DNA of 64,000 bases, from positions 1 through 64,000 of the forward strand of contig NZ_JAKFZN010000005.1 of NCBI RefSeq assembly GCF_021654165.1. The letters run 5' to 3'. The DNA comes from Nereida sp. MMG025 (GTDB lineage Bacteria > Pseudomonadota > Alphaproteobacteria > Rhodobacterales > Rhodobacteraceae). The position numbers and the translations under genes were made by a program. The notes beneath the pieces were generated by a model that worked only from the letters and a program-made list of their open reading frames with translations, was not told the origin of the DNA and did no database searches. Below, piece after piece: positions 3,274 through 63,240 of the stretch (positions within the stretch are counted from its first letter, which is position 1; every line of letters starts with the position of its first letter).

Positions 3274-3352
3274 ACGTTACCCCTCACGCCCCACGCGAAT
3301 CGTTAACGTGTTGAGTATATTGCCACTCTTCTATTTCACCAAATTCGAGCGT

Positions 3353-6598: not shown

Positions 6599-6625
6599 AT
6601 CTTTCCCCTTAAAAATACAGAGAAA

Positions 6626-6672
6626 ATAATGCACTTGGCACATGAATACTCAATCTAAAAGTGTGCTTGACG
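6626..6672. promoter_or_regulatory. Divergent cas9 / tracrRNA promoter candidates
   Basis: On the minus strand, TTGAGT (6653-6648) and CATTAT (6631-6626), 16 bases apart, sit about 30 bases upstream of the cas9 start. On the plus strand, TTGACG (6667-6672) is a good -35 for the tracrRNA, but the -10 around 6690 (AAGACT) is weak. These are pattern matches only. The rest of the 340-base gap between cas9 and the next gene holds the tracrRNA; beyond 6790 I see nothing else. Confidence 0.35.
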
Positions 6673-39765: not shown

Positions 39766-39768
39766 CCA

Positions 39769-42255: not shown

Positions 42256-42335
42256 CGCCTAGTTGATCATTGCTTTCTCATTCGACTCGAGCTCGCTTGT
42301 CGTATGGAAAAACCTGACTCAACCACTCGCTGCCA

Positions 42336-42896: not shown

Positions 42897-42900
42897 TTAT

Positions 42901-43236: not shown

Positions 43237-43283
43237 ACTTTCTCCCAAGAGATGCGTTGACTCTATGATTAATTCGCCGTAAC

Positions 43284-43339
43284 TGTCTTACAAGTGAGAC
43301 AGTTTGCGTTTCTATTTTGGTACGTCTCTCATGTAAGAC
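43284..43339. promoter_or_regulatory. Two palindromic operator boxes upstream of the XRE gene
   Basis: TGTCTTACAAGTGAGACA (43284-43301, one mismatch) and GTCTCTCATGTAAGAC (43324-43339, an imperfect dyad). Both share TCTTAC/GTAAGA and GTGAGA/TCTCAC-like half sites. They lie about 50-100 bases ahead of the XRE start and could cover its promoter, and possibly also influence the divergent small gene at 43444. Confidence 0.6.
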
Positions 43340-43443
43340 AGTGAATCATGTGCATGCTTGTGCGTCAAGTCTGACGTCGGGTTTCGATGATCTTAGGCAA
43401 GAAAATAAGCTCAAACACTTGAGCGGCAGTCAGAACGAGGAAT

Positions 43444-43719
43444 ATGAAAGTGGCTACGAAACGAAACACAGAAGTTACTGGGAAGCGCGCCGCATCCGCA
43501 GCATCAAAGGTCTTGCGAAGCCGCACGGCCAGCAAAGCGGCCAAAAGCGCGGCTGGCTCCGCATTGACGCAAGTACGCAGCAAGAGTGGGGCCAATGAAG
43601 TCACCAGCAAAAGGGCTGCGAGCGCTGCTTCTAAGACGCTTCGGAACCCCCATGCATCGAAAGCGGCAAAGTCCGCTGCTGGATCGGCGCTGACACAACG
43701 TCCTGGCCGCAAGCGATAA
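43444..43719 (+). CDS. Small Ala/Ser/Lys-rich repeat protein
   Basis: The 91-residue basic protein consists of two similar units, each reading roughly TGKRAASAASKVLRSRTASK then AAKSAAGSALTQ (second unit TSKRAASAASKTLRNPHASK then AAKSAAGSALTQ). It is low-complexity, helical and basic with no membrane segment, reminiscent of histone-H1-like small proteins, but I do not know the family. Similar short proteins occur in defence neighbourhoods in my recollection. GAGGA precedes the ATG at 43444. It ends 47 bases before the TIR gene and may be cotranscribed with it. Confidence 0.7.
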   Translation: MKVATKRNTEVTGKRAASAASKVLRSRTASKAAKSAAGSALTQVRSKSGANEVTSKRAASAASKTLRNPHASKAAKSAAGSALTQRPGRKR

Positions 43720-43766
43720 GCGCACACGGGAGGCTCCAAATCCCTTGAGAAGATGAGAGATATGAA

Positions 43767-44468
43767 ATGGCAAGATGCACAGCACCAGTAAATGGACACC
43801 GAACTGCGAGTGGCGCAGCAAACTGTCCGGCATGTCGGGGTGGGTACCGAGGCTTTAGATCGTACTCTTCGCCGTATTCGTCTCCGTCCTATCCCAGCTC
43901 AGGATATATCAGTGGTGGCCGCAGCAGCGGGGGAGGTTCCAGTTCTGGCCGCAGTAGACCAAGTTGGTCTCCCTCAGGATCTACTGTGACATACACCACA
44001 GCTGAGGTGCGAGCACTTACGCCGGTCCGCCGCAGTGTCGAGACGCGAACGCCTCCGCCGGATCCGCGTGACGTGTTCCTTTGCCACGCGTGGGATGATC
44101 GGGCAGGGGCCGCTAAGCAATTGCACGATTTGCTTGAATCGCTGGATGTCTCGGTCTGGTTTAGCGAGAAAGACGTCCTTCTTGGTTCAACATTGCTCCG
44201 CGAAATCGACAAAGGCTTAGCGAAATCGCGGGTTGGGGTCGTGCTTGTGACACCGGCGCTGTTGGAGCGTCTGCGCGGGGAAGGGATTGCTGACAAGGAA
44301 TTGTCTGTTCTTCTGGCCACCGACTTGCTCGTGCCGGTTGTGCACGACACCACCTATGAAGCGCTTCGCAATGTCAGCCCTATGCTTGCTTCTAGAAGCG
44401 GTCTGAGCACCGCGGAAGGGGCCATGACGGACGTGGCTGCTAAGCTCGCCGAATTAGTCAGTCTCTAG
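43767..44468 (+). CDS. TIR-domain protein with zinc-finger-like N-terminus
   Basis: The 233-residue protein has a TIR domain at about 101-205: RDVFLCHAWDDRAGAAKQLH, then SVWFSEKDVLLGSTLLREID and SRVGVVLVTPALLERLRGEG, with the likely catalytic Glu at 178 (ADKELS). TIR domains of this kind hydrolyse NAD+ in bacterial defence. The N-terminus has C4, H11, C20 and C23 (CxA...HxxA...CPAC), a possible metal knuckle, and a Ser/Gly-rich linker (35-75). Weak ribosome site. It lies 84 bases ahead of the Argonaute operon and could feed it or be separate. Confidence 0.82.
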   Translation: MARCTAPVNGHRTASGAANCPACRGGYRGFRSYSSPYSSPSYPSSGYISGGRSSGGGSSSGRSRPSWSPSGSTVTYTTAEVRALTPVRRSVETRTPPPDPRDVFLCHAWDDRAGAAKQLHDLLESLDVSVWFSEKDVLLGSTLLREIDKGLAKSRVGVVLVTPALLERLRGEGIADKELSVLLATDLLVPVVHDTTYEALRNVSPMLASRSGLSTAEGAMTDVAAKLAELVSL

Positions 44469-44552
44469 TGTAGGTTTGGCTCACTTGAGATGTTCGTGTT
44501 GTGTTCTTACGTTGTGCTTAACAAAATTTGACAACTTGGCGGTGAGGCGACC

Positions 44553-45968
44553 ATGAAACAACTGGAGATTGAAAACCAACTGCGCGATGTCGTCAGTCGC
44601 CTGATTGCTCAGGTTGAGTTAGCGACATCTCAAGGACGGACGGATATCAACTTGGCACTTGAAGATGCGTTCATACCCATCTTGAAGTCCGTTTTTAACT
44701 TACCCCATCTGATCAATCTTAACCGCAAGAGAAAGAACTACCCAGGCATCGACCTTGGAGATGATCATGATCGAGTAGCATTCCAGATCACATCCACAGT
44801 GACGTTGGACAAGGTAAAGGGCACGCTTGAACAGTTCATGGAGCGTCAATACTTCAACACCTTTGACGAGGTGTTCGTAATGATGCTTGTGAAGAAACAA
44901 GCTTCCTACAGTCAAACGTCCGTCAATTCTGTCTTGGACGAACGGTTCGCTTTTAACGTAAAAAAGCACGTTATCGATCTCGGCGATGTCCTCGGCATGG
45001 TGACAGGACTTCGCTTGGCGGCACAAGAACGTGTCCTCGCCGATTTCAAGCAAATCTTGGGTGACGTGGACGCTTACTTGAGCTTCAATGAAGAGAACGT
45101 GGAGGCACCGGCAACACTTACCTCCAACTTGCAGGAAATTGAACTCCCAACGGACGTGTATATTGGGGAGTTGTCGATAGATGAAAAGGTAGTCACCGCG
45201 CGAGCAAAGAAAGAGCTGGGTTACCGTGGGCGTGCCAGATCCACCAAAGCAATCGTTAAGATGGCGCTATTGCTAGAAGGGATGGATACCGACTCTTGGG
45301 TTTTTCATGATGGGAGGCTGTTCTCGTTCCGCGATCCGGACACTTCCGGTCTTTCAAGCATACTTGACGAAGGCACTATCGAAACGCTTTCTGCAGGCGA
45401 TTTGATCGATTCAGGTCAAATAGACAACATCAACATAATGAAGCAGTTGTTGTTTGCTGAGACGCACGAGCGTCTTAGTTCATGCAATGTGAAACTACAT
45501 CCTAAGGACCGGTTTTTCTATTTCTGTTCAAATAGCGAGGAACCCACTACCCGATATGAGTCATGGGTTGGGAAAAAGACCGCAACGCGCCGAGTCTATG
45601 AAGTCAAGTACCAGAAGAAAGACCCTTCGAAGGTCGCGCATCACAAGCACTTTTCGTTTGAGTTGAGTTTTGTGGATATTAGCGGCACCTGGTTCGCTCA
45701 AATCCGGCCGAGCTGGTACTTTTCGTACAATGGGCACACGCGGTCGAATTGGCATGATGACTTACTATCACAGCAGAAAAGGTTGGAATTAAACGCCTCC
45801 GTTCGGAACATGGTCCGCTTCACCGCTTTCTACCTGGCAAATCTACCGGATGAGGCGAGCGTAGGCCTCGACTTTAGATCTCTTATTGTCTTCAGCAATG
45901 ACGACGATGAGCCAAATGAAGATGAAGCGGAATTGTTCGAAGATACCGAAGAGGAGACGGCAGCATGA
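44553..45968 (+). CDS. SMEK-domain/APAZ protein, partner of a short Argonaute
   Basis: The 471-residue protein pairs with the short Argonaute, which it overlaps by 4 bases. The N-terminal ~170 residues resemble the SMEK domain: RTDINLALEDAFIPILKSVF, NYPGIDLGDDHDR (62-74) and VAFQITS (75-81). A restriction-nuclease-like reading is possible, but the usual ExK is absent (QIT instead), so activity is open. The C-terminal part fits APAZ: WVFHDGRLFSF, HPKDRFFYF, KHFSFELSFVDISGTWFAQ and the ending in which RLELNASVRNMVRFTAFYLA resembles the Arg-Leu-Glu-x-Asn pattern. APAZ regions bind short Argonautes. No clear membrane segment. An acidic tail ends the protein. Confidence 0.8.
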   Translation: MKQLEIENQLRDVVSRLIAQVELATSQGRTDINLALEDAFIPILKSVFNLPHLINLNRKRKNYPGIDLGDDHDRVAFQITSTVTLDKVKGTLEQFMERQYFNTFDEVFVMMLVKKQASYSQTSVNSVLDERFAFNVKKHVIDLGDVLGMVTGLRLAAQERVLADFKQILGDVDAYLSFNEENVEAPATLTSNLQEIELPTDVYIGELSIDEKVVTARAKKELGYRGRARSTKAIVKMALLLEGMDTDSWVFHDGRLFSFRDPDTSGLSSILDEGTIETLSAGDLIDSGQIDNINIMKQLLFAETHERLSSCNVKLHPKDRFFYFCSNSEEPTTRYESWVGKKTATRRVYEVKYQKKDPSKVAHHKHFSFELSFVDISGTWFAQIRPSWYFSYNGHTRSNWHDDLLSQQKRLELNASVRNMVRFTAFYLANLPDEASVGLDFRSLIVFSNDDDEPNEDEAELFEDTEEETAA

Positions 45969-47377
45969 AGCTCATCACATTGAAAGAGCCGCTGCTTGAG
46001 TTCGGCACCGGAACGCACATCTGTCCTCGGACGGGAATCGAACACATGGGTGTCTACGACACGCGTGACGAGCTTAGGAGAACAGAACTGCGGATTGGTG
46101 TTGTCGGTCGGGGTGAAGGAGTCGACCTTCTCGACGACTGGCTGGTCAAATGCAGAAGTGGGATCGAACGCAAGACAAAGTCCAATCTACTGAATCTGTT
46201 TCGCGGTTTCGGCGGGATTAATCAGGATTATGGCTTCTTAACCCGATTGATTAATTCACCCCAGTACACCAGGACACTAAAGAAATCGGACGTAAGCGAA
46301 ATCGTGAAGTTGCCTTCACGTGAAGAGCGCGTCGATAGGTCTGTCGAACTCTACTATGAGCAAGTGCGGTTCCTCGCTGAAAACCGCTCAGTTGATGTGA
46401 TCGTATGCGTCGTTCCTAACGAGATGTTCGATTCGATCACCAGCGCAGCGCAAACGGACAAGAAAGATACAGACGATGACCTTGAGCACAACTTCCGGCG
46501 GCAACTTAAAGCTCGATGCATGCATCTTGGCACTCCGCTTCAGCTTGTTCGAGAAAAGACGATTCTGATCACCAAGCAGTCGGGTGAGCAGCAAGATCCT
46601 GCAACGAAGGCTTGGAATTTCTGCACTGCCCTTTACTACAAAGGCAACAAGACTATTCCTTGGCGGCTGGTTGAAGATACTGCTAAACCACGGACCTGCT
46701 ACATTGGTATCGGGTTCTATCGTAGCCGTGACGGTGAGACTATTTCATCAAGTTTAGCCCAGGTCTTCGATGAATTTGGCCACGGTATTATCCTACGCGG
46801 CACACCGGTATCTATCGACAAGTCGGACCGCCGTCCGTATCTCAACGAAGACCAAGCTTACGATCTTTTGAGCGAGGCACTCGAGGAATATGATCGCGCC
46901 CTTGAGCACATGCCAGCTCGAATTGTCGTCCACAAGTCCAGCCATTTTCGAGATGGCGAACGAAGTGGGTTCCTTCGGGCGATCGACGACAAGGGCATAA
47001 GGTCGAAAGACTTCGTTACCATAACTGGAACAGATATTCGCTTATTCGGGGATGGCGACTACCCTCCCAAACGAGGAACACTGCTTACGGTAGCGGAGAA
47101 CGAAGGCATCCTCTACACACGCGGAACCATCGACTATTACAAGACCTATCCCGGCTCCTACGTACCAAACCCGTTAAAGATCACCGTTTACGAACAGGAC
47201 GCGTCGCTTGAGGCGCTTTGCGAAGAAATCTTAGGCCTCACGAAAATGAACTGGAACAACACCCAGATGGATGGCCGGTTGCCGATCACATTGGAGTGCG
47301 CCAGCAAGATCGGTGATATCATGAAGTACGTTGGCGAGCGGGAAAAGCCTCAGGTCAGCTATAGCTACTACATGTAA
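45965..47377 (+). CDS. Short prokaryotic Argonaute (MID-PIWI), predicted inactive
   Basis: The 470-residue protein fits a short Argonaute lacking N and PAZ domains. The MID domain has HNFRRQLKARCMHLGTPLQL (about 175-194), which should bind the guide 5' end. The PIWI domain starts near TCYIGIGFYRSRDG (244-257) and includes ARIVVHKSSHFRDGE (318-332); the C-terminus is YSYYM. The first catalytic Asp is Gly (IGIG) and the HxxD-like position has Ser, so the tetrad is lost, as in other short Argonautes. It would sense foreign nucleic acid and activate the SMEK-APAZ partner. The 4-base overlap (ATGA) gives coupled expression. Confidence 0.88.
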   Translation: MKLITLKEPLLEFGTGTHICPRTGIEHMGVYDTRDELRRTELRIGVVGRGEGVDLLDDWLVKCRSGIERKTKSNLLNLFRGFGGINQDYGFLTRLINSPQYTRTLKKSDVSEIVKLPSREERVDRSVELYYEQVRFLAENRSVDVIVCVVPNEMFDSITSAAQTDKKDTDDDLEHNFRRQLKARCMHLGTPLQLVREKTILITKQSGEQQDPATKAWNFCTALYYKGNKTIPWRLVEDTAKPRTCYIGIGFYRSRDGETISSSLAQVFDEFGHGIILRGTPVSIDKSDRRPYLNEDQAYDLLSEALEEYDRALEHMPARIVVHKSSHFRDGERSGFLRAIDDKGIRSKDFVTITGTDIRLFGDGDYPPKRGTLLTVAENEGILYTRGTIDYYKTYPGSYVPNPLKITVYEQDASLEALCEEILGLTKMNWNNTQMDGRLPITLECASKIGDIMKYVGEREKPQVSYSYYM

Positions 47378-47412
47378 GAAAAGCAGACACTTCTGCATCT
47401 TTGAGGACATCC

Positions 47413-48804
47413 ATGCCGACGCGCATAAGCAAAGCCAGATTTGACGAGTTTACGTTTGGATTTCGTGGCTCAGGTGAACAAGATAGTTGGAATGAAGTGG
47501 CATATTGGTCGACCCACGAAGGCGACGCAATTGCTGCCCTTTTCTATGTTGAAAAAGCGGATTCCTATTTGGGTTTGCTGTGCCTCCGGAACGATCAGCA
47601 ACGATTTCTCCCACATGGGCCACTGGTCCCGTTTCGAACTCTGCGAGAGGGCGAAGTGTCGATTTGCCAGAAGCTGAAGGAAATAGAAGATCGAGAGACT
47701 GAACTAACTTGCCCGGCCGGTGACGGTAAACCAGGTGTTGATCTCTTTGCTTCTGATCATGACGGCAAATTAAGTCCAGTTTTCGTAAACATTCGAGACA
47801 CGCTACACTCACAGGCAGCTCGACAACAACTGCAGGAAATCGCGCATTGGTTTATTGACGGAGACGGTAATTTTGTCCGTGACTTTCAAACTGCGGGTAC
47901 TGACGCCCGGCTTTGGGAGTTGTACTTGTTCCGTGTGTTTCATGCTCTGGATATGAAGGTTGATCAGAGTATAGCGATCCCCGACTTCGCGTTGGAGCTG
48001 CACGATCAGAAGGTTTTTGTCGAAGCTGTGACCGCAAACGCCAGTGGCAACGAAGCTGTTGACTTGATGGCTGGTCCAACTCCACCACCGGATGACTTCT
48101 GGAAGTTTGTTGAAAATGATATGCCCATCATTTTTGGATCCCCGCTCTATTCAAAGATGAAGAAGCAGTACTGGGAGAAGGACGCAGTCAGGGGCCATCC
48201 GTTCGCTATTGCAATAGCCGATTTTCATGCTCCCGGTTCTATGACTTGGTCTCATACAGCGCTATCCATCTATCTTTTTGGAACTAGCGTTGAGAGGGTA
48301 TTGGGCCCTGACGGGCAAGCCGTTGCAATACCGAAGCCACTTCAAACTCATACAAGGGATGAAAAATCAATTCCTTCAAATTTTTTTGCGCAGCCTGAAG
48401 CTGAAAATGTCTCGGCAGTAATTTTCTCAAACGCTGGTACCAAGGCAAAGTTTTCTAGAATGGGCACGCTTGCTGGATTTGGAGACCCAACAGTGGCAGT
48501 TAGGCGCATTGGCACCCTTTCAAATCCGGAGCCAGGAGCACTTGAGGGAATTCCGTTCGATGTGAACATTGAAAACGGAGAGTACTTTGAGAATTGGGCC
48601 GATGAACTTGAGATCTACCACAACCCCAATGCTCTCATCTCATGGCCTGGCGAAGATTTACTCCCGGCGGCAACTCATTTCCGACAAGAAGGCGATGATC
48701 TAGTTTGGAGAGGGGCACCGTTTCGAGTTTTAAATTCCATCACGCAGGTTAAGTCAGAGCCCCCTTTTCCAACTTCGGACAAAATCTCGGCGGGGAGCAA
48801 GTAA
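47413..48804 (+). CDS. Unknown protein, possible PD-(D/E)XK-type nuclease
   Basis: The 463-residue protein follows the short Argonaute after 35 bases. I do not recognise a family. A stretch WELYLFRVFHALDMKVDQSI, then AIPDFALELHDQKVFVEAVTAN has the look of a restriction-endonuclease fold (PDF, then a ExV variant), but no clean ExK is present. There is a later AVIFSNAGTKAKFSRMGTLA region that may bind nucleotide or be structural. No membrane segment. GAGGACAT precedes the ATG at 47413. Position suggests a link to the Argonaute operon but it may be independent. Confidence 0.6.
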   Translation: MPTRISKARFDEFTFGFRGSGEQDSWNEVAYWSTHEGDAIAALFYVEKADSYLGLLCLRNDQQRFLPHGPLVPFRTLREGEVSICQKLKEIEDRETELTCPAGDGKPGVDLFASDHDGKLSPVFVNIRDTLHSQAARQQLQEIAHWFIDGDGNFVRDFQTAGTDARLWELYLFRVFHALDMKVDQSIAIPDFALELHDQKVFVEAVTANASGNEAVDLMAGPTPPPDDFWKFVENDMPIIFGSPLYSKMKKQYWEKDAVRGHPFAIAIADFHAPGSMTWSHTALSIYLFGTSVERVLGPDGQAVAIPKPLQTHTRDEKSIPSNFFAQPEAENVSAVIFSNAGTKAKFSRMGTLAGFGDPTVAVRRIGTLSNPEPGALEGIPFDVNIENGEYFENWADELEIYHNPNALISWPGEDLLPAATHFRQEGDDLVWRGAPFRVLNSITQVKSEPPFPTSDKISAGSK

Positions 48805-48873
48805 TGGTAAAATCAGTGGTCTAAACCCTCATGGCATGGGATCATCAATCAAGCGATCAAAAAGCGAGATCTT

Positions 48874-50379
48874 ATGACACGGAGCAAAGGTACAAAGATC
48901 TCGATCGTAGTCCCCAGCATTGAGCAATTGGACGATGAGGGCATGCGTGCGATTGCGCCGCTAAGAGATGGTCGGTGGAGCGAACAGACTAAGTCGATCC
49001 TGGCCAAGTTTGGTACTCAGATGCTCAGTCTTAATCGAAGTTGGGCGGCAACTTGGACTGGTTGGACCTGCCCGTGTTGTGGACGGAGCAAGCCTCAGAT
49101 TGCTCGTTTAGCATCGAGCGGAACAGTACTGTGTCATCTTGAGCAACGTCATGATCATCTCGAAGAATTTCTCAAACGTCGATTTTCGGCGGTGGACCTT
49201 CAAGGTGATGAACGCGACCATCGGATTCAAATCAGTCACGCCGAAGCTGCCTTGCGGCCATTGGTTGAACGGTTTGAGCGGACTTTGATCTGTGTGGACT
49301 GTAACTTGTCCGATGGGCGAGTTAAGCTGGCCTTGCGTGACGAGGTCGATAGCCATTTCACGTTTACCCCGAGCGAGATCGCAGAATTCATCACCGTGAG
49401 CGATAATCACCTCCATGAAGTGAATATTACCACAGCACACTCGCTATGGGTCGATGCACAAGAGGATTTTTACGACCGAATAGATTTCGTCAAACGGATG
49501 GCGAAAAGAATTGCGAAGGGTCGCCACAAGCGAGAAATTGCACTTGGACAGAAACTCCACCGCCAAGTCCAAACAAGAGATGTGGTCTATCAACTATGTG
49601 CGGAGCAACTACCCAGCATTCATAGCTTACATCTTGGCGAGATAATTGACTCACGTTCTGTTGCGAGAGGCGGTTTAGGCGAAACGCTTCAGCGTTCCAA
49701 AAAGCACGGAGGAGGACCCCCGACAGACGCAGAATTTGCAGCAATCAATGCAGCGCAAGCGTCTACGAACAGGCACTGGCGGGAAGCAGGGGAAGCGTGG
49801 GCTTGTCCTTGTTGTGAAAGAGCAAAGCGCGAGATTTGCCGTCGGTCCAATCGCGGGGCATGGACTGCCAGAATCCATTCGTTTGAAGAACTGGAATTTG
49901 AAACTGACACTGAACAGCTCTCGATGCGAAGGCAAAACGGTGCAGGAGATATCGTCATTTCTGCTCCAAGACGCGAACTCATTTGCCAGGACTGTCGGGG
50001 CATCGTTAGCCAGTTTCGCCAGCGAAGCGCAGATTTAGATGCACGGGTCTTGAGTTTAGAGGATCTGCGCATCCTCGTAGCGTGTTCCACCAAGAACGCG
50101 GCTCACGACATCGACTCTGAACGTGTCGAAGAGATGATTGTAGATAGGTCTGCATTCTTGGATGCGATTGACGAGTTTGAAGCACACCAGCGTCTGGTGA
50201 CTGCTACGTGGATTGAATACTTGAAACTGACGAAGTCAGGTCTCTCCGATGCGCAAGCGCGCGATTTGATTGGCTTTGAACTGGCAAAAGCCCGCGACTG
50301 GGATGTCGACGATGGTGAAGATTTTGTGGATTGGTTGCTGGACGAAGCCGAACGTCTGAGTGCAAAAAGGAGGAAGTGA
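48874..50379 (+). CDS. Protein with two Zn-ribbon/HNH-like modules, unknown function
   Basis: The 501-residue protein carries two similar modules. The first has WTCPCCGRSK (C66, C68, C69), LCHLEQRHDHL (H88, H93, H95) and LICVDCNLSDGR (C140, C143, N144), an order reminiscent of HNH nucleases. The second has AWACPCCERAK (about 311-314) and ELICQDCRG (371-374) but no matching His cluster, so only the first could be catalytic. The remainder is helical and acidic. No membrane part or signal is seen. It lies 69 bases after the unknown 463-residue protein and may belong to the same defence set. This would be worth a structure prediction. Confidence 0.6.
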   Translation: MTRSKGTKISIVVPSIEQLDDEGMRAIAPLRDGRWSEQTKSILAKFGTQMLSLNRSWAATWTGWTCPCCGRSKPQIARLASSGTVLCHLEQRHDHLEEFLKRRFSAVDLQGDERDHRIQISHAEAALRPLVERFERTLICVDCNLSDGRVKLALRDEVDSHFTFTPSEIAEFITVSDNHLHEVNITTAHSLWVDAQEDFYDRIDFVKRMAKRIAKGRHKREIALGQKLHRQVQTRDVVYQLCAEQLPSIHSLHLGEIIDSRSVARGGLGETLQRSKKHGGGPPTDAEFAAINAAQASTNRHWREAGEAWACPCCERAKREICRRSNRGAWTARIHSFEELEFETDTEQLSMRRQNGAGDIVISAPRRELICQDCRGIVSQFRQRSADLDARVLSLEDLRILVACSTKNAAHDIDSERVEEMIVDRSAFLDAIDEFEAHQRLVTATWIEYLKLTKSGLSDAQARDLIGFELAKARDWDVDDGEDFVDWLLDEAERLSAKRRK

Positions 50380-50479
50380 AAGAGGCGGGCTCGTGGGTAT
50401 CTGTCCACTTCTATAGGATCGAAATATTCGAACATATGGATAAAAACTGAGCATACGGGATCAGAGAGAGAAAAGCCAA

Positions 50480-51151
50480 ATGACAAAGCAGGGCATCGAG
50501 GTTTTCCGGGATTTGACGATCCACTCGGATCAGGTCCCACTAAGTGCAATTCGGATGGCTATGCTTGACGTCCAAGATAAAGCTTGGTCGCACGGTGAAG
50601 AACAGGAAGAAACCTTGCGAAAGTATGCTGTTGGAACGGATCGTGAAGATGTTCTTGTATTCATCTACGAAGGGGAAGAATTGCCAAAGGCCGCAATTAC
50701 CTTGTGGGAGCGAAATCAAGCTTATTGTGCAACGAATATTGTTCCCGCTGAGTCTGGTCAGCTGACAGTCCGGGAGTATAACGCTCTACTTTGTAACTTC
50801 GTCAATTCCGTTGTTGATCGCAGCAATGTGCGTGATGCACTGAAACTCGATCTCACGGATGAAGTTCGGGGCCTCAGTATCTGGACTAGCGAACAGGCAG
50901 CACTCGCTCTAGGCCGTTTCTCAAGCCTCGCGAATAAGAGCACAACGAACTCTCATCCAAATGACCTGCAAAGATGGGAAGAGTTCGTAATTTTTGCACA
51001 TCAAAGCGCTAAGAACTTGCCTGTTGATATACTGATGCAATGGTTGATTGAAATTGATGGATGGGATGAGCGCTCAGCAAACAAACTGGCTATCAACTAC
51101 GAGCAGGGTATTTCCTTGCTGGCGACTTACGATGCGGCCTTGAGAGGCTGA
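50480..51151 (+). CDS. Unknown protein coupled to a PIN-domain protein
   Basis: The 223-residue protein is soluble, acidic and helical (KLDLTDEVRGLSIWTSEQAA, LQRWEEFVIFAHQSAK), with no recognised domain. Four bases separate its stop from the PIN gene, so the two form an operon. That order, a smaller acidic protein followed by a PIN nuclease, recalls an antitoxin-toxin or sensor-effector pair, though the size is large for an antitoxin. GAGAGAG lies upstream of the ATG. I cannot name a function. Confidence 0.6.
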   Translation: MTKQGIEVFRDLTIHSDQVPLSAIRMAMLDVQDKAWSHGEEQEETLRKYAVGTDREDVLVFIYEGEELPKAAITLWERNQAYCATNIVPAESGQLTVREYNALLCNFVNSVVDRSNVRDALKLDLTDEVRGLSIWTSEQAALALGRFSSLANKSTTNSHPNDLQRWEEFVIFAHQSAKNLPVDILMQWLIEIDGWDERSANKLAINYEQGISLLATYDAALRG

Positions 51152-51155
51152 ACTG

Positions 51156-51854
51156 TTGATATTCGACAGCCTCGAGGAACTTGCCGAAGGCGGTGTACCG
51201 GTGTTCTTCCCTGATACCTGCATCCTATTGGATATTTTGCGATCTCCTAGACGAGAAAATGTGGATGCAGCCGCGATATTGGCGGCGACAGCAATTCGCA
51301 ATGCTGTTGTACAGGATGGTACTGTTGGATGTGTGGTGCCGGAACAAGTGAGATTAGAACTGGCTGAAAACCTTCCAAAGGTGCGCGACGATACAGATTC
51401 TGCACTAAGGAAACTGGTTACGGAAATGAAGCGCATCGACGCCTGGTCTGTGGCGCTTGGTCAGCCAAGCCAAACCGTCGTCGACCATTTCAGGGCAGGT
51501 GTCCCGACAGCCGAACAAATTATGTCAGATATCGTACAAGCCTCTCTTTCGCATGCGACCACACCAGATATTACAAACCGTGGGTTCACTCGGATGATGC
51601 AAAAGCGAACACCGGCAAAGTTAGGCAAAGACTCTACCAAGGACTGTGTCGTCGTCGAAAGCTATCTTGAAGTCGCAGGCTCGTTGCGCGCCCTCGGGCA
51701 CACATCTGATATTGTGTTTGCCTCATCGAATGTAAGTGACTTTGTTTCTGGTGCACCTAAGAAACTGAACACCGACATTTCAACTGAGTTCAACGCATTG
51801 GGTGTTCGCTATGGCCGCGCCCTACACGAGGCAAAACATCTACTCAATCTGTGA
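51156..51854 (+). CDS. PIN-domain ribonuclease-like protein
   Basis: The 232-residue protein fits a PIN-domain (DUF4935-like) fold: VFFPDTCILLDILRSPRREN near residue 20 (D20), KDSTKDCVVVESYLEVAG (acidic residues of the centre) and IVFASSNVSDFVSG toward the end. PIN proteins are metal-dependent RNases used in toxin-antitoxin and other defence pairs. The start is a TTG at 51156 with GAGAGG upstream; no ATG fits. It directly follows the 223-residue protein. Larger than a VapC toxin (about 130), so likely a longer PIN subfamily. Confidence 0.75.
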   Translation: MIFDSLEELAEGGVPVFFPDTCILLDILRSPRRENVDAAAILAATAIRNAVVQDGTVGCVVPEQVRLELAENLPKVRDDTDSALRKLVTEMKRIDAWSVALGQPSQTVVDHFRAGVPTAEQIMSDIVQASLSHATTPDITNRGFTRMMQKRTPAKLGKDSTKDCVVVESYLEVAGSLRALGHTSDIVFASSNVSDFVSGAPKKLNTDISTEFNALGVRYGRALHEAKHLLNL

Positions 51855-52330: not shown

Positions 52331-54285
52331 ATGGCTAGCCCCAAACCGAAGACTTCTAACCCAAAAAAATCCATTGATCCCGCCAAAACACTTGAAGCAG
52401 CACCCCGTCTTGGGGATCGCGTTCTCAATGTCCATGAAGATCCAACCGATCTGCGCGACCGAATATATGAACCAGCACTCCTCGATCTTGACCTGAAACT
52501 CGACCCACCGAGCACTGAAATCAGTCCAATCCGAGATCAGAAGAAAGAAGGAGCTTGCACTGGCTTTGCTTTGGCAAGTGCCATCACTTTGATGAACCGG
52601 CAACGCCATAAAAAGAAAGATGCCGAAGCAATCGCTCCCCTCGCCAGTCCACGCATGCTTTACGAAATGGCCAAAATCAACGACCCATGGCCCGGTAGTG
52701 ACTATGAAGGCTCAACCATTCGAGCAGCACTTAAGGGCTTCTATCACAACGGCGTCTGCAGGGAAGATCTTGCCCCCACAAAGATGGCGAGAAGAACTGG
52801 TTCCTAAACATCGACCAAGCCAAAGATGCGCGATCAACCGGTCTCGGTGCCTATTTCCGACTCCGGCCCGAAATCATCGACTACCACGCCGCTCTCAATG
52901 AAACCGGCGTCATCTATGTCTCAGCCAGAATTCACCGGGGATGGCAAAAACCCAAAACGGGCAGCACTAAAGGCGATATCAAACCGTCCCATATCAATAT
53001 GGGCGGCCACGCTTTCATCATCGTCGGTTATGACGATAAAGGCTTCCTCATTCAAAACTCTTGGGGCGAAGACTGGGGACAATTTAATGGGATGCCGGGG
53101 ATAGCCCGCTGGCGCTACGAAGACTGGGCCGCCACTGTCATGGATGCGTGGGTTCTGCGCCTATCAGTGCCAACACCACAAGCCTTTGACCTGACAATCG
53201 CACAGCTTACAGAAGCAACCGAAAGCCTTTTCGGGGAAGCGGTTGTCAGCGCACCTCGCCAAGAGGAGATCATCGGCCATGTCATCCACCTCGATGATGG
53301 TGAGCTGGTCGAAACTGGGAAATACCCAACGCCTCTTGCCTCCATCAAGGCAACAGCGGACTTCCTCGCCAACGAGAATGCGACCGCTGCTCGCGACTAT
53401 CAGCATCTGGTCTTATACGCTCATGGCGGTTTGAATAACGCAGCCGCCTCAGCAAACCGCATCCGAAAAATGAAAAAGGTCTTCAAACGCAATAAGATCT
53501 ATCCAATTCATTTCATGTGGGAGACAGGTTTCTTTGAATCGCTGTCAGATGTGATCTTCAATTCACGCGACAAAGCCCAAGCGCGCGTCAGCGGCGTCTC
53601 TGATATCTGGGACAGAGCCCTTGAAGCCATTGCTCGTGGTCCTGGACGTGCGGTCTGGCGTGATATGAAATGGGATGCCGATCAGAGTTTCAAAGCCAGC
53701 GGCGGCGGGCGCAAAGCCGTCAAAACCCTGCTGGAAGGCAATGCCAAGCGATCAAAGCCGCTCAAAGTCCATTTCGTCGGCCACAGCGCAGGGTCCATTC
53801 TCATCGCCCATGCCCTAGATGCCATGGACGCAATGAATCCACTCAAAACGCCGGTCCAGTCATGCTCTCTTATGGCGCCGGCTTGCACAGTCGATCTCTT
53901 CAAAAAGAGCTATCACCCAAGAATTGGCACATCAAACGCGGCCAGTGGCATCACGAAACTGTGGCAGTACAATCTCATCGATCAGCGCGAACGCGAAGAC
54001 ACTGTCGGACCCTACCGGAAATCACTGCTCTATTTCGTCTCAAATGCCTTTGAAGAAACACGAGAGATGCCGCTCCTCGGAATGGAGATCTTCAAGTCGC
54101 AAGTGCCGACAAAGGCCGGCTACAAAATCCATTATTCAGGCCGCGCACCCAGCATCACCGACAGCGACACCCATGGCGGTTTCGACAACGACCAAAAAAC
54201 GATGAACGACATCCTCAAGAACATCCTCGGGAAAAAGCCATCAGTAGCAGATGGTTTTCAGCCTGAAGATGTGGTGGGGTACTAG
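52331..54285 (+). pseudogene. Papain-like (C1) peptidase fused to an alpha/beta hydrolase, one frameshift
   Basis: Two frames read as one protein of about 650 residues. The first (52331-52807) contains ISPIRDQKKEGACTGFALAS (Q70, C76), the papain-type active-site Cys. The second (to 54285) carries HINMGGHAFIIVGYDDKGFL, GGHAF with the catalytic His, and QNSWGEDWGQ with the Asn, then an alpha/beta-hydrolase-like HFVGHSAGSILIAHAL (GHSAG nucleophile elbow). The frames meet near GCCCCCACAAAG at about 52780, a run of five Cs where one base seems to be missing. Either it is a true frameshift, or an assembly or sequencing error; polymerase slippage could also restore it. The next gene, a KAP NTPase, starts five bases on. 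Confidence 0.75.
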
Positions 54286-54290
54286 TCAGG

Positions 54291-57200
54291 ATGGAAACAT
54301 CGCTCAGTTTTTGGATTTTTCAGTACACCAATGGTGATCGAACAGGGCGCCTCTTAGAAGAAAGCCGCAACAACAAATCATCGCCTGTCACAAATTGGTT
54401 GTGGAGTAGCAACCGAAAACAACAACCTGTTCCTGGGGATTTTGTCTTCTTTTTGCGATCCGGCGCCAGGCCCAACACTTATCCTTCAGCTCAGCCATGG
54501 AGAGGTATTGTTGGGTTCGGTGTTGTGGCTGGCCAACCAGTATCTCTTGAAAATGCACAGTCGGCAGAAGGCATACCCGTCGAAACGCTTGCCTATTTCC
54601 CTGATGAAGTTCTACCTGACTACCTCATTTGGCATGATCATCGCATTGCTAGCGCAGCCTCGATCTATGGGCAGCAGGGTGCAAACTTCCTGATTGATCG
54701 CGACGCTGCCGTGGGATTGGTTGATGAACTCGAAAAACCTGAGGACGGAGTACACCGTGCAGATGTTCATGAGCATCCTGCCTTAAGCGCGCTGTTGGAA
54801 GACAGACACCGAATAGATGTTGTCACACGCGAAATGGACAAACAGCGATACTGGGTCGATAGAGACGCAGCTCTTGCGCTCCAGTTTGCCAGAGCGATCA
54901 GCGCCAAATCAAATCACAGGTCGGGTGAACTGACTTGGACACATTTATTCTTGGGAATTCTACTGCGCGCCAAAGGACTGCAGAACAAAGCACGTGCAAA
55001 TGTCGCTTCTAAGGCGCTCTTCGAGTTAGCCGCGCCCAATGGTGATCTAACTGCCATCGAAAGCTATTGGGAGAAAAGGGGCACTCCCATTGCCAGGCTT
55101 CAACGCAGCGATGCCGATCCAATTGAGAAAATGAGCACCAGTGCAAGGGGCGCTTTCACTCAGGCAAAAAAGACTACCGAAAGCTCAAACGCAAACCTTA
55201 TTTCAATGGATGCTCTGTTGTCCGGTCTCGTCAATGAGCACGCACAAGACGATGTCTATCGCGAACTCTTTCAGGCCGACAGAGATAGTCTCATTGAACG
55301 TATCAGCAAACAGGTCGCTGCGAATTCTAGATCAACGGAACTGGAGCCATTCCTAAGCTGGGTGGGGCGCCAAGAACTCATTGGCTTGGAAAACATTGAG
55401 TCGAAGACAACTGGTAGTCCCGAGGGCGAAGAAGGGGGCAATCAAAGGGAAACATACGAAGCCGAGAAAGAGGCTGAGGACATAACAGACCGCGTTCCTA
55501 CCGGCCCTCAGATTGCAAATGCACTCAACGATTCCGCTGACCGTGGACAGGATTTGCTTGATGTCGAAGAAGAAGCGAAAGCCTTCGCTCGCCTTATTGC
55601 ATCAAAGAGCTTTGAACCGCCGCTTGCGATCGGCGTCTTCGGTCCTTGGGGGAGTGGCAAAACCTTCTTCATGAACCAAATCGAGAAGGCGATATCGGAC
55701 CTTGTGAACCCCGATTTCACGGGTTTAAAGGGTCAGCCATTGCAAGAAAAATCCTCGTTTCACGGTAAGATTGTAAGGATCCCCTTCAATGCTTGGCATT
55801 ATATGGAATCCAATGTCTGGGCAAGCCTGGTCGATGTCATCTTCAACGACCTTGATGCATGGCTGAGGGCCAAAAATGGCGGCTCCAAAGAAGGCCAAGA
55901 AATTGACGCGCTCTTTGACAGCCTGTCCACGGCCCAAGAAGAGAGATTGAACGCGATCGAAGTGCTAGCAGAAAGGGTGAAAGCTCGTGAACGAGCGCGC
56001 AATGACCTTTCTGATGTCGAACAGCGAACAAACGACTACTGGAATGCTGTGTTAGCTGAACTTCGCAATCACGCATTCAGCGATGACAAAATCAACGATG
56101 CCCTGAACACGCTGGGCCTCCAGAAACTCAGTGATGAAGCAGCCAATCTTCAGAACGCGATTGCCGAAGCCCGGAAAACTGCTTCCAACGCAGACCTGCT
56201 CACAAAGTCGGTGCGCGTACGAGTCTCGACGCCAATAAATTTGGTGGGATTGGGTGCGGCGATTTTGTTGGGACCGTTCCTGATCGGGTGGGGTATTAGC
56301 TTTGCAGAGACGAATAACTGGTTCGGGCTTTCGACTACTTTCAAACTTGATAACACAATCACAACGATCACGGGTCTGGCAACCAGTGGGACAGCTTGGC
56401 TCGGTGCGGTAACAAAGCGAGCTCAAATCGGAGTGGGCGCGCTGCGCAAGCTGCAGACAAAGTTCGATGAAATCGACGCTCAACGCGAGACGCCCCTAGC
56501 AGAGCTCAAAACAGATATTGATGATGCTAAAGCGGTCATCGCTCAGACAGAAGAAGCCGTGGCGGAAGCTCAAGCCAGACTGATGGAGCAAACGACTGCG
56601 GGGCGTGTCGCGGCCTTCATTCGCGAGCGAGCAGAGAGTGATGTGTATTCCAAACACTTGGGTATCATTGACACTATACGCCGCGACTTCGAGCAGCTGT
56701 CAGCATTGATAGAAAACTCGAAGTCTGGTCGTGATGAGAAAGAAATATTGGAGCAACACAAAAATCACGTTGCTGCTCAGGTAGATGCAATTGAATCACG
56801 ATATGACTTAAGAAGCGAAGCCTATGCTCCGGTCAAAGAGGCCCTTAAGAAACTAGAAAAGACCAATGAAACCGGCGTTAAGCTCGGAACGACTTTTGAC
56901 CGGATTGTGCTTTACATCGACGACCTAGATCGTTGTCCTCCAGACAAAGTTTATGAGGTCCTTCAGGCTGTTCACCTGTTCCTGACCTTTCCGTTGTTCG
57001 TCGTTGTAGTTGGTGTTGATACGAGATGGATGGAGGTGTCGCTCGTGGAAGAGCTTGGTGAACTGGTTGACGGAACAAGTGGAGCCAATCCAAAGAACTA
57101 CCTTGAGAAAACTTTCCAAATTCCTTATTGGACACGCCGCATGGATGGTGGGGTTGCCAAGACGTTCGTCAATGGAATTTTGCCGGACCCTCTTCCATCC

Positions 57201-57953
57201 TCGTTGTCTGATGGAGAAGACGTTGCTGACAACTCCGATCTAAGGGTGGTTGCGCCAGAAACTGGCAGTGAAGCACCTTCCACTTCGTTCTCTATGAACT
57301 TCACAGAGGAGCTACCGCATGAAAATGATGATGCCAGTCCTGCTGTTGAAGCAGGAGATCCCGATTTAGATGACTTGCAACCACTCCATGATGACGATTT
57401 GGCATCGGCAGGAGCCTCGCTGATATCGACGCGACCTGTCATTATCTCGCCAACGGAGAGGACACTCTTGGCGGACTTTGCGCCCTATGCCGGTCGCTCT
57501 CCAAGAAAATTGCTACGGTTTGTAAATGTCTATGGTTTGATAAAATCGGTCGATAAAAAAGATGGCTCTCCACTCATCGATCTCGAGGATGATCTGTTCG
57601 CGAGTCGCGCACTTATTGCCCAACTGGCGCTAGCGACCGGGGCGCCGGAAGCTGCTGTTCATCACTTCGAACTGATCGAAAAGAGTGTAGATTATACCGG
57701 CTACTACATAAAATCAGATCATTCCGACCCGGACAAACGACCAGATGTGCCCCCTGACATTTCCGAGTTGATTTGGGAGCCTTTGAAGAAGGCACTCCCG
57801 CCTGGTCGAGACCTTAAGACAGACTTTGATGACCTATACAAAATGCTCAAGCTCACAGCACCAGTTGCAAGACGCTATACTTTTGCGTCTTCAGATGCGG
57901 TCCTGGCCATGGAGCCCGAAGACAAAACTAAGCCGTCTCATTTGAGAGAATGA
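54291..57953 (+). CDS. KAP-family NTPase with EVE-like and Clp-N-like N-terminal parts
   Basis: The 1220-residue protein is a KAP-type P-loop NTPase. Walker A is GPWGSGKTFF (451-460) and Walker B is IVLYIDDLDRC (872-882), followed by VVVVGVDTRW. Two hydrophobic segments (about 649-670 and 686-705) between them anchor it in the membrane, as in other KAP NTPases. The first ~110 residues (FWIFQYTNGDRTGR...RGIVGFGVVAGQ) look EVE/PUA-like. Residues about 185-345 have two HLFLGILL/ALLSGLV-type helices resembling Clp-N repeats, but this is by eye. A coiled coil follows (710-860). It is probably coexpressed with the upstream protease/hydrolase, and a strong terminator overlaps its stop. Confidence 0.85.
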   Translation: METSLSFWIFQYTNGDRTGRLLEESRNNKSSPVTNWLWSSNRKQQPVPGDFVFFLRSGARPNTYPSAQPWRGIVGFGVVAGQPVSLENAQSAEGIPVETLAYFPDEVLPDYLIWHDHRIASAASIYGQQGANFLIDRDAAVGLVDELEKPEDGVHRADVHEHPALSALLEDRHRIDVVTREMDKQRYWVDRDAALALQFARAISAKSNHRSGELTWTHLFLGILLRAKGLQNKARANVASKALFELAAPNGDLTAIESYWEKRGTPIARLQRSDADPIEKMSTSARGAFTQAKKTTESSNANLISMDALLSGLVNEHAQDDVYRELFQADRDSLIERISKQVAANSRSTELEPFLSWVGRQELIGLENIESKTTGSPEGEEGGNQRETYEAEKEAEDITDRVPTGPQIANALNDSADRGQDLLDVEEEAKAFARLIASKSFEPPLAIGVFGPWGSGKTFFMNQIEKAISDLVNPDFTGLKGQPLQEKSSFHGKIVRIPFNAWHYMESNVWASLVDVIFNDLDAWLRAKNGGSKEGQEIDALFDSLSTAQEERLNAIEVLAERVKARERARNDLSDVEQRTNDYWNAVLAELRNHAFSDDKINDALNTLGLQKLSDEAANLQNAIAEARKTASNADLLTKSVRVRVSTPINLVGLGAAILLGPFLIGWGISFAETNNWFGLSTTFKLDNTITTITGLATSGTAWLGAVTKRAQIGVGALRKLQTKFDEIDAQRETPLAELKTDIDDAKAVIAQTEEAVAEAQARLMEQTTAGRVAAFIRERAESDVYSKHLGIIDTIRRDFEQLSALIENSKSGRDEKEILEQHKNHVAAQVDAIESRYDLRSEAYAPVKEALKKLEKTNETGVKLGTTFDRIVLYIDDLDRCPPDKVYEVLQAVHLFLTFPLFVVVVGVDTRWMEVSLVEELGELVDGTSGANPKNYLEKTFQIPYWTRRMDGGVAKTFVNGILPDPLPSSLSDGEDVADNSDLRVVAPETGSEAPSTSFSMNFTEELPHENDDASPAVEAGDPDLDDLQPLHDDDLASAGASLISTRPVIISPTERTLLADFAPYAGRSPRKLLRFVNVYGLIKSVDKKDGSPLIDLEDDLFASRALIAQLALATGAPEAAVHHFELIEKSVDYTGYYIKSDHSDPDKRPDVPPDISELIWEPLKKALPPGRDLKTDFDDLYKMLKLTAPVARRYTFASSDAVLAMEPEDKTKPSHLRE

Positions 57954-58096: not shown

Positions 58097-59185
58097 TTAC
58101 CTTTGATTTTCTGACAGATCTTTCATGCGCAGCTCCATACGTTTATCGAGCTGGTCTTGAAAATGTCTGAAACCTGCGAGGCGGTTGTTCATAAGTTCGA
58201 GGGCGATTTCTTCATCGCTCGGGTTCACCCACGTACCTTTCGGGATCGCTAGGTCTTGGCAGGTTTCCTCTAAATCAATCCAAATCTGCGAGACATAACC
58301 AGCTTCCTCATCGTCATCGAGTTCCCCACGCTTTGTATAGTAGTGTTGAACTGCATCGCAGGCGATAATCGCCCGATGCAGCAACGGTGGGTAAGGCCCT
58401 TGATAGTTCACTCGTGTTCGTCGGCTCTGGTCTTCCAACGCCAGAAAAACACTGACCAATGCCACGCACTGAATCACGATTTCACTAGACCAGTATTCTT
58501 TCAGATCATGGTCTGCTGGCCGTCTTTCTTCGCCGTGCAGTGCAGCTAGCTGAGAAAGGCGCAAGGCAAAGGTATCCGCATCTATTTCGCAGTGATGCCT
58601 GAGTTTCTGTGCCCTTTGATCATTTACTTCGTTCAACCAAAGCACCTCTTCAAATAGAAAGCTGTCGTCATGATTTCTGAGTGACGATGCATGATCGCGA
58701 AGATGGTGAGAAAGCTCATGAAGAGTGACGAATTCGAGGGCTCGACCGAGACAGTTTAGAAAGTATCTCTGTTCTCTCTCATTGCTCGATGACATGAACG
58801 TAGACGGATCTTCGGCCCATAAAAACGCTGCGCTCCTCGGTTCTCGGCCAAAGTTCTGACAGAGAAGGCTTGAGCCACAAATCAGCCGCCTGACGATTTC
58901 TGAGACAGCGCTCACAAGTCCGCTCGAGAGCACAACCGCGCATTTATCATCTTGGCCAAGGGCTGCAGCGTTGCGAACGCCGGAATCAATGATTAGGAAG
59001 TCAAAGCTTCCCAATATGGACCTTGCTGGATGCACCCTGAGAAGATGCTGACAACCGGCACAGACCTCGATCAAAAGCTGTTCATGAGGATCGTTAAGCG
59101 TCTTGTCGAGGAAACGTACCTTACCGCCCATCCGCTTAACGGAAGGATGGCTATGCCAGAATGCTATGTCTGCTTTGTCAGTCAA
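58097..59185 (-). CDS. HExxH metallopeptidase-like protein A, unknown family
   Basis: The 362-residue cytoplasmic protein has HELSHHLRDHA (zinc-binding HExxH) followed by a third ligand helix CEIDADTFALRLSQLAAL about 45 residues later (E/D-x-x-A-D pattern). This spacing recalls M48-type or Lit-like peptidases. I cannot name a family. The start is a TTG at 59185 with GGAAGG upstream. It stands head to head with another HExxH protein (59314-60378). No secretion signal or membrane segment. Confidence 0.75.
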   Translation of the reverse strand: MTDKADIAFWHSHPSVKRMGGKVRFLDKTLNDPHEQLLIEVCAGCQHLLRVHPARSILGSFDFLIIDSGVRNAAALGQDDKCAVVLSSGLVSAVSEIVRRLICGSSLLCQNFGREPRSAAFLWAEDPSTFMSSSNEREQRYFLNCLGRALEFVTLHELSHHLRDHASSLRNHDDSFLFEEVLWLNEVNDQRAQKLRHHCEIDADTFALRLSQLAALHGEERRPADHDLKEYWSSEIVIQCVALVSVFLALEDQSRRTRVNYQGPYPPLLHRAIIACDAVQHYYTKRGELDDDEEAGYVSQIWIDLEETCQDLAIPKGTWVNPSDEEIALELMNNRLAGFRHFQDQLDKRMELRMKDLSENQR

Positions 59186-59313: not shown

Positions 59314-60378
59314 GTGACCAATAACCAACTAAATGAATACGATATCGACGCAATCCAGGACGACGGAATTCGTGCGCAGTATCAGACGATTCAGAAGCGG
59401 TTTGGATCGTTGGCTCTCCAAATCCAATCTATCTATGGTCTAGATAACAAATCAATCGATGTCGTCTTTGTGGCAGATGGCGCTTTCAACGCCTCGGTTG
59501 AAATGAACGAAGATCGATATCTCATACAGTTATCAAATGCAGTCCCGGTCCTTTTGATGGTTTTCTTCGACAAGCTTCTTAGTGATCCCGGTAATTTGCC
59601 TTGGCTTAGCAGCGAAGGCACAGGAGACGTCAGCTACGACATCCCTTTTGCCGTAAAGGCCAAAGATCTGTCTGATACCAGAAACTGGCTCATAAAGACC
59701 AACAAAATCCGGGCTTTTGCGTCCTACACATTGGCCGATATAGCGACGTCATTCATGTTCCTTCACGAGCTTGGCCACATACTCGGTGGGCATCTGAAAG
59801 ATCTAGAAAAACGTGGGCAACGCGCTGCCCATGCTGAGTTTCGCATGTTGAAAGATGCTGAAACCGGAGACACTGATCTCCAACAACTGCAGGAGTATCA
59901 GGCGGACTCCGTCGGTGCGTATCTCACAACCCACATCATCGAGGAGTTGATAGAGGACGCCAAAGTCAATGAACGCACGCGCGCCGTCTTTGGACCAGAA
60001 GATATAGTCGCCGAGAACACTATATCGCTCGCTGTTACAGCACTCTACGGTCTGTTCGCTTATGTTCGCGGACAAGAAGTGCGTCTGCGCTTGCACGCGT
60101 CACATCCCGATCCTTTAGTGCGTGCGTTATATACGAGAGACTTCATCTACCAAATCATGCAGCAAAACCGCTCTTTCGATGTCGAGTTGTCTCAGGACAT
60201 GCTTCAGGCGCGATTTGATGAGATGAATGCGGTCTTGTTATCGCTTGATCTCATTTCGTCGAGCTCCATCACCGATGAAGGTATTGAGATGGCGAACGAC
60301 CATTCCCGAACCTTAAAGAGCTATCAATACGAGCGTGGAAAAGAGGCATCCAAGTATGCTTTTATTGAGTGGGGTTAG
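59314..60378 (+). CDS. HExxH metallopeptidase-like protein B, unknown family
   Basis: The 354-residue protein has SFMFLHELGHILGGHLKDLE (HExxH) and, about 45 residues later, LQEYQADSVGAYLTTHIIEE (E-x-x-A-D), the same layout as its divergent neighbour. The remainder has no recognisable domain; there is no signal peptide. The start is a GTG at 59314 with weak upstream GGAAAA. Its last 17 bases overlap the tail of an oppositely oriented regulator gene. Together with two similar proteins in the region it suggests several peptidases acting in parallel. Confidence 0.75.
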   Translation: MTNNQLNEYDIDAIQDDGIRAQYQTIQKRFGSLALQIQSIYGLDNKSIDVVFVADGAFNASVEMNEDRYLIQLSNAVPVLLMVFFDKLLSDPGNLPWLSSEGTGDVSYDIPFAVKAKDLSDTRNWLIKTNKIRAFASYTLADIATSFMFLHELGHILGGHLKDLEKRGQRAAHAEFRMLKDAETGDTDLQQLQEYQADSVGAYLTTHIIEELIEDAKVNERTRAVFGPEDIVAENTISLAVTALYGLFAYVRGQEVRLRLHASHPDPLVRALYTRDFIYQIMQQNRSFDVELSQDMLQARFDEMNAVLLSLDLISSSSITDEGIEMANDHSRTLKSYQYERGKEASKYAFIEWG

Positions 60379-62163: not shown

Positions 62164-63240
62164 TTACACCTCAGACTTTTGCGGCGGAAACACCAACTTC
62201 CTGAGATCCTCTTGCACATCTTCGAAGTCAGTAATCACAGCTTCGCTCTCACTGCGTAAAGCGACAAGCGCCTCAGGACGGTTAAACAACCGAAAATGGT
62301 CGATGACAGGGAAGATTGCCTCATGCACAGACAACATGCCCATTGATTTCTGCAGCACTTCTTCTTCAAAGCCGTCCTCGCCAAACCGGTCAATGTGAGC
62401 CCGTTTCATTTGCGATACAGCTGTTGAATAGCGCAACATTGGTGACGGATAGATAGATTTGACTTGCCGGTTCTGCGTCTGCGTTTCGTACACGGCGGCA
62501 TTGAATAAAGCGTTAGCGAACAACACCACCGATAGGTTTTCCGTTGGCGTGTTGCGGCACCATCTCTCGAGAATGTCTGGTGGATCGTTTGCCAGTTCGA
62601 AGAGCAGTCCCGCGGCGAACCGATCCGCATCATATTCATACGCGCGGATACGCCCTTGTTGCAATGGGGCTGTGTCCGAAGTCATCATCAGCTCGTCTAA
62701 GAAGGATTGTACTCCGCCAGACCTGTCGTGAAGATCGTCCACGTGGCCGCGAACAATGTGTGCTAGCTCATGCGCGAACACTGTGAGTAAGATCAGCTGA
62801 AACAGCGTTTCAGCATATCCATCTTGCAGCTGATCAAGTTCTGCATCGGCTCTCGCCAGTTGTTCTTCGACATACCTGGAAGAGGAATGATGACGATACT
62901 TAGAGAGCGTGATTGTCCGCTCACCTGACGTGTCAAACTCACTCTCATACATGGCCGTAGCGGCTGCTGATATCCCATATGCCCATACAAAAAGACCGAT
63001 ATGCAGGCGAATGACATAAGCTGATTGGTCAGGTGAAATGGCCGCAGATGCATTTACATCGCGTTTGTTGAGGATCTCAACTGTTAAGCCTCTACCCTTA
63101 GGAAATTGAAACTCTCCCTTCAAAGTCCGACTGTAAGCTGTCAACTCTTGTAGTGCTCTCTTCGTAAAGCGCTCGAACCTGTGTGACTTTAGACCAAACA
63201 TCGCACTGCCAATACTGCTAGACCCAAAACGCGGCACCAA
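62164..63240 (-). CDS. HExxH metallopeptidase-like protein C, unknown family
   Basis: The 358-residue protein has VFAHELAHIVRGHVDDLHDR (HExxH) and, about 45 residues on, IRAYEYDADRFAAGLLFELA (E-x-x-A-D pattern), the layout seen in proteins A and B. The first codon is TTG at 63240 (or GTG at 63237), with AAGGGCG just ahead inside the upstream gene, which it overlaps by 23 bases. An ATG at 63201 is possible. No signal peptide. Overlap with the upstream gene suggests a shared operon. Confidence 0.75.
   Translation of the reverse strand: MVPRFGSSSIGSAMFGLKSHRFERFTKRALQELTAYSRTLKGEFQFPKGRGLTVEILNKRDVNASAAISPDQSAYVIRLHIGLFVWAYGISAAATAMYESEFDTSGERTITLSKYRHHSSSRYVEEQLARADAELDQLQDGYAETLFQLILLTVFAHELAHIVRGHVDDLHDRSGGVQSFLDELMMTSDTAPLQQGRIRAYEYDADRFAAGLLFELANDPPDILERWCRNTPTENLSVVLFANALFNAAVYETQTQNRQVKSIYPSPMLRYSTAVSQMKRAHIDRFGEDGFEEEVLQKSMGMLSVHEAIFPVIDHFRLFNRPEALVALRSESEAVITDFEDVQEDLRKLVFPPQKSEV

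Follow-up and report, generated by a model that had tools for sequence, protein, structure and literature searches.

The 64,000 nucleotides from Nereida sp. MMG025 analysed here (the window) form part of a 77.9-kb contig in a 3.13-Mb genome and contain two neighbouring genes on the forward strand, encoding a papain-like (C1) peptidase/hydrolase and a KAP-type P-loop NTPase (Table 1). A sequence-only reading had proposed these two as an undescribed defence pair, which raises the question of whether the proteins belong together or whether one of them is of interest on its own. The spacing of five bases given there is correct (stop codon of the C1-hydrolase at 54283-54285, KAP start at 54291). 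Since C1-hydrolase and KAP genes are not usually found together in relatives, however, it is the EVE-KAP ATPase rather than the C1-KAP pair that is the part of interest, and the closeness of the two genes is probably due to chance or represents an optional add-on.

Table 1 Position of the C1-hydrolase and KAP genes, their predicted parts and other features of the surrounding island within the window
Feature	Position	Strand	Evidence or remark
Cas9	3353-6643		PADLOC
SoFic	28861-29955		PADLOC
IetA and IetS (IetAS-like)	38770-42255		PADLOC E 4e-68, 2e-27
ThsB-type TIR	43767-44468		PADLOC E 3.6e-114
REase-APAZ and short pAgo	44553-47377		PADLOC E 3.9e-175 and 4.5e-185
PD-T7-1	47401-48804		PADLOC E 4.7e-122
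C1-hydrolase, first-frame part	52331-52807	+	N-terminus with catalytic Cys (codon 52556-52558)
C1-hydrolase, second-frame part	52789-54285	+	Remaining C1 domain and alpha/beta hydrolase
Papain His	53008-53010	+	Second-frame part
Papain Asn	53056-53058	+	Second-frame part
Hydrolase GHSAG Ser	53785-53787	+	Second-frame part
Hydrolase Asp	53893-53895	+	Second-frame part
Hydrolase His	54172-54174	+	Second-frame part
KAP P-loop NTPase, 1220 aa, intact	54291-57953	+	KAP_NTPase PF07693
EVE/YTH-type (PUA-superfamily) domain, residues 7-141	54309-54713	+	Iterated HMM, AlphaFold, Foldseek
Clp-N-like helical repeat region, about residues 281-360	55131-55370	+	Weak; profile A8
Walker A K457	55659-55661	+	
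Hydrophobic segment, residues 651-669	56241-56297	+	Hydropathy
Walker B D878	56922-56924	+	
HExxH zincin-like protein	58097-59185	-	No Pfam match above cut-off
HExxH zincin-like protein	59314-60378	+	No Pfam match above cut-off
HExxH zincin-like protein	62164-63240	-	

The assumption of a defence island holds, as short pAgo/REase-APAZ, PD-T7-1, a ThsB-like TIR protein, IetAS-like proteins and Cas9 are all encoded in the window; no evident ThsA adjoins the ThsB-type TIR gene. It is by its context that the intact KAP NTPase can be assigned a putative immune role. The island stretch at 38770-51854 also contains genes for a capP-like peptidase and, after PD-T7-1, a PIN_12 gene preceded by a small gene. 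Cas9 is accompanied by CRISPR-like repeats and a Cas1-like ORF at the window's left end (950-6643). None of the three zincin-like proteins encoded beyond the KAP gene has an NCBIfam match.

The NTPase is encoded in a single open frame of the length originally described, and its assignment to the KAP family is borne out by a score of 90.9 bits against PF07693 (gathering cut-off 20; E 1.1e-25). The suggested membrane anchor corresponds to one strongly hydrophobic stretch flanked by K457 and D878, with no second segment of the protein above the hydropathy threshold used. A membrane insert at such a place is typical of KAP NTPases, as the title of Aravind et al. (2004) states.

The EVE-like part attributed to the N-terminus was recovered by iterated HMM searches and by fold, though the Pfam EVE model gave no match to the window protein at E ≤ 0.5. 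When an HMM was built up from the first 150 residues of this protein, it collected 13 of 77 KAP N-termini (those >100 aa); Pfam calls EVE in nine of the 77, that of the window not among them. Of six relatives from the HMM set tested singly, five carry a Pfam EVE domain (L130, L099, L125, L043 and L077); the N-terminus of L073, likewise tested singly, yielded none. The AlphaFold model (20 rows) has a pLDDT of mostly about 80 over residues 1-110, is uneven beyond and poor after about residue 240 (mean 61). Foldseek searches of the PDB returned 2ar1 (E 2.2e-4), 1zce (5.0e-4), 2p5d (8.6e-4), 1wmm, 2hd9 and 2gbs as the top six, each with a probability of 1.00, the first three of which we take to be EVE/PUA-like small proteins. 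EVE/YTH-type matches occupy ranks 1-6 and 9 onwards and include the McrB N-domain and YTH domains. A true EVE/YTH-type fold of the KAP N-terminus is confirmed. In case of the Clp-N-like part, a weak likeness stands, with a profile of eight rows (A8) retrieving an engineered protein first and then the N-domains of Hsp104, ClpB and ClpC (E 0.001-0.2), but no Clp-N Pfam match to the KAP protein was obtained; the AlphaFold model is of low confidence over this region.

Of 289 KAP relatives confirmed in a scan of species genomes, the best 80 yielded 79 loci. Together with plasmid and other loci, 82 KAP proteins were analysed, leaving aside matches with a summed core score <340 as well as loci that were duplicated or cut (L001, L024, L041, L044, L067, L068, L122 and L190); viral contigs contained no KAP relative. 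The nearest full-length relative among the matches listed (L073, 44 % identity) is flanked by transhydrogenase-like and glyoxalase-like genes (names read from translations) and has no partner. In a quick tree of the KAP cores, the window protein groups with L073 (support 97), then with L076 (99), inside a clade of 21 rows (100). Since the EVE label switches at least six times on this tree (among the matches listed), the sensors appear to be exchanged. Within the limits set by quick-tree support and several long branches, EVE appears to be one of several swapped N-termini on the KAP core; others among the 77 are TIR (4), peptidoglycan-binding (3), WD40 (2) and kinase (2) domains.

In six members of the 21-row clade, including that of the window, a neighbour of ≥150 aa lies within 60 nt on the same strand, and the other 15 lack one (an overlapping ORF at L074, -59, was counted as an artefact). 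Apart from the C1-hydrolase, these neighbours are SIR2 followed by a nucleoside deoxyribosyltransferase (L022, 4-base overlap), DUF2971 (L070, 4-base overlap), PLD (L081, 12 bases), a ClpX-like protein (L084, 22-base overlap) and a tight neighbour of no recognised kind (L091). The KAP, SIR2 and nucleoside deoxyribosyltransferase genes of L022 (5720-11468), located on a Rhizobium plasmid, follow each other with successive 4-base overlaps, and the N-terminus of this KAP protein is possibly Clp-N-like. Outside the clade, 10 tight neighbours were scanned and found to be of mixed kinds, including a transporter and an amidase; at L103, the tight neighbour is a NACHT-WD40 protein. In each of two Bacteroidota loci (L129, 6943-13453; L141, 7467-13437), the hsdM and hsdS genes of a type I restriction operon flank an inserted KAP gene, with gapless or overlapping junctions.

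The product of the first gene had been described as a C1-type peptidase with a GHSAG hydrolase-like C-terminus, and both domains score above their Pfam cut-offs (Peptidase_C1, 22.4 bits vs 20.7; DUF900 hydrolase, 22.6 bits vs 20.5). Papain Cys, His and Asn are all in place, distributed over two frame pieces, the first of which (ATG at 52331, 158 aa, stop at 52805-52807) shares up to 50 % identity with relatives (tblastn). The C1 profile retrieves papain-like chains, 3ois being the best (E 6.4e-8). Among 13 aligned C1-hydrolase proteins (window included), the papain His and Asn are invariant, and the GHSAG serine is kept in 11, being absent from L167 and L168. Fusions of a C1 peptidase with a DUF900-like hydrolase occur in rhizobia and others (about 30-47 % identity), and about 3-5 % of genomes carry a C1 gene (8 of 294 other genomes, 10 of 384 other genomes and 9 of 199 at E ≤ 1e-20). 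Viral contigs harbour C1 relatives at 11 loci, with most of the query covered only by L194; a structure model of this intact relative, with both window pieces as rows, reached a mean pLDDT of 34 and was set aside. Judged from its homologs, the C1-hydrolase is a real protein family, mostly intact and not tied to KAP.

Instead of KAP, caspase, S8, trypsin-like, haem-peroxidase and GDSL proteins adjoin C1 relatives at several loci, and caspase-GDSL-M15 fusions are among these neighbours. In a set of 52 neighbour proteins picked by eye from 97, favouring tight or large ones, GDSL (7), haem peroxidase (5), caspase (4) and M15 (3) were encountered, counts that do not represent rates. GDSL lipase proteins adjoin the C1-hydrolase relatives of L167, L173, L174, L176 and L181; they contain a caspase domain too in L167, L174 and L176, and M15 peptidase domains in two. 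The C1-hydrolase with GDSL, caspase and M15 neighbours possibly constitutes a multi-hydrolase conflict system.

Genome-neighbourhood searches did not reveal recurrent co-localisation of C1-hydrolase and KAP from either side, and the proposed two-gene defence pair is not upheld. No KAP gene was found beside C1-hydrolase relatives at 39 loci (29 plasmid/alphaproteobacterial, 8 planctomycete and 2 viral-contig loci with clear C1 matches; flanks of about 7-9 kb, shorter at contig ends); the flanks of L183, L184 and L186, missed by the C1 gene calls, were still searched for KAP. Conversely, when both C1 pieces served as tblastn queries, the C1-hydrolase was detected at two of the 82 KAP loci (among the matches listed), namely the window and the planctomycete locus L074. 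The latter contains a truncated C1-hydrolase remnant in two frames (13579-14479), with ArsR-like and AHSA1-like genes (names read from translations) between it and a KAP gene whose product falls in the same 21-row clade as that of the window. A rough estimate puts the number of such meetings expected at random among 81 loci at about 0.01, so that L074 offers a genuine hint, though no proof, of an older or occasional C1-KAP link.

The frame break in the C1-hydrolase gene is real in this assembly. It is not fixed in relatives, where the gene is in one frame and mostly intact, with open frames >600 aa, one planctomycete copy having an internal TGA. Decay is the simplest account of the break. If the break were due to erroneous sequencing or to programmed frameshifting, the whole C1-hydrolase would be made and the pair would be alive; the catalytic residues retained in both halves and a frame switch close to a short C-rich stretch are in line with this, but the single frame of the relatives is not, and neither the one other genome of the genus nor the plasmids provided a close copy of the locus for comparison, so that we regard this account as highly improbable. 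Alternatively, the C1-hydrolase might be a stray piece of another multi-hydrolase conflict or secreted-enzyme system (caspase/trypsin-GDSL, animal-type haem peroxidase, peptidoglycan peptidases). The neighbours of its relatives would agree with such an origin; however, ordinary metabolic genes stand beside C1 relatives at many other loci, and partners of the caspase/GDSL/haem-peroxidase type are absent beside the C1-hydrolase in the window, leaving this a distinctly unlikely source. Rather more deserving of attention, although still doubtful, is a two-gene system of sensor-NTPase and swapped effector, in which EVE-KAP would switch on the C1 protease/hydrolase to attack proteins or lipids at the membrane. 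The gap of five bases and the shared strand predict one transcript, clade mates fill the same slot with SIR2, PLD, DUF2971 or ClpX-like neighbours, and the remnant at L074 lies near a KAP gene; furthermore, PMC8195603 describes KAP as replacing STAND NTPases in exchangeable-effector systems, with alpha/beta hydrolases among the effectors. Against this stand the 39 C1 loci devoid of KAP, the solitary nearest KAP relative among the matches listed, the broken gene in the window and the plainly ordinary nature of some of the 10 tight neighbours outside the clade. An optional effector role of the C1-hydrolase for EVE-KAP is possible. Going one step further, one may speculate that the KAP core is an immune hub swapped at both ends, i.e., in its N-terminal sensor (EVE, TIR, WD40, kinase) and its neighbour effector (SIR2, PLD, DUF2971, ClpX-like, C1 protease-hydrolase). 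In the present case, the membrane ATPase would use its modified-base reader to license a protease-lipase, which would then kill the infected cell. We consider this reading, which would amount to an undescribed class of modification-sensing abortive infection, unlikely.

The reading preferred here, and held with moderate confidence, is that of a self-standing anti-phage EVE-KAP membrane NTPase, with the adjoining broken C1-hydrolase belonging to a separate family. It agrees with the solitary L073, the 15 of 21 clade members without a tight neighbour, the lack of KAP at all 39 C1 loci, the other partners of C1 relatives, the Foldseek matches to YTH domains and the McrB N-domain and the dense island; the predicted common transcript, the remnant at L074 and the tight, effector-looking partners of some clade members count against it. 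We infer from the fold that the EVE domain would bind a modified base of invading DNA or RNA. Relayed by the Clp-N-like linker, this signal would reach the P-loop core, where ATP would drive a change at the membrane that stops infection, presumably through damage to the host membrane or a block of phage growth. The C1-hydrolase would be a separate, frame-shifted enzyme, brought near KAP by gene traffic in the defence island.

Several known proteins resemble parts of this locus. The C1/DUF900-like fusions of rhizobia and others have the same two-domain architecture as the window gene, but in one intact frame and without KAP neighbours. PifA is responsible for T7 exclusion by the F plasmid; it shares the KAP-type P-loop (PADLOC E 3e-10), but the best-matching stretch is the P-loop only and the architecture is otherwise unlike. 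QatA of QatABCD shares the KAP P-loop core (PADLOC E 3.9e-19), whereas the best-matching stretch covers the Walker B part only, the NCBIfam score of 81 bits lies far below the equivalog cut-off of 600, and no QatB, QatC or QatD is evident beside the window KAP gene. EVE-McrB and other EVE-containing modification-dependent restriction proteins likewise fuse an EVE-type modified-base reader to an NTPase (PMC7641849), but the NTPase of the window is a membrane KAP rather than McrB and lacks a nuclease. KAP is absent from the main text of that article, a census of EVE contexts, and a KAP NTPase figures in a further predicted defence operon according to PMC10853773. Neither an EVE-KAP fusion nor a C1-KAP pair was met in the literature searched, mostly at listing level, and within these limits the EVE-KAP fusion may be undescribed.

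Among the closest known systems is Tmn, a phage-stopping KAP NTPase that has two transmembrane domains (PMC11846954). Both are single KAP NTPases, Tmn being anti-phage with transmembrane domains, but the window protein differs in its EVE and Clp-N-like N-terminus; none of the 12 PADLOC matches is to a Tmn family, a model of which the library may lack. The EVE-KAP fusion offers a modified base as a testable trigger for KAP NTPases such as Tmn, and such a trigger agrees with the mapping of Tmn escape to the phage nucleotide-modification gene nmad5, reported in the same article. If true, EVE-KAP would join modified-nucleic-acid sensing to membrane-acting immunity.
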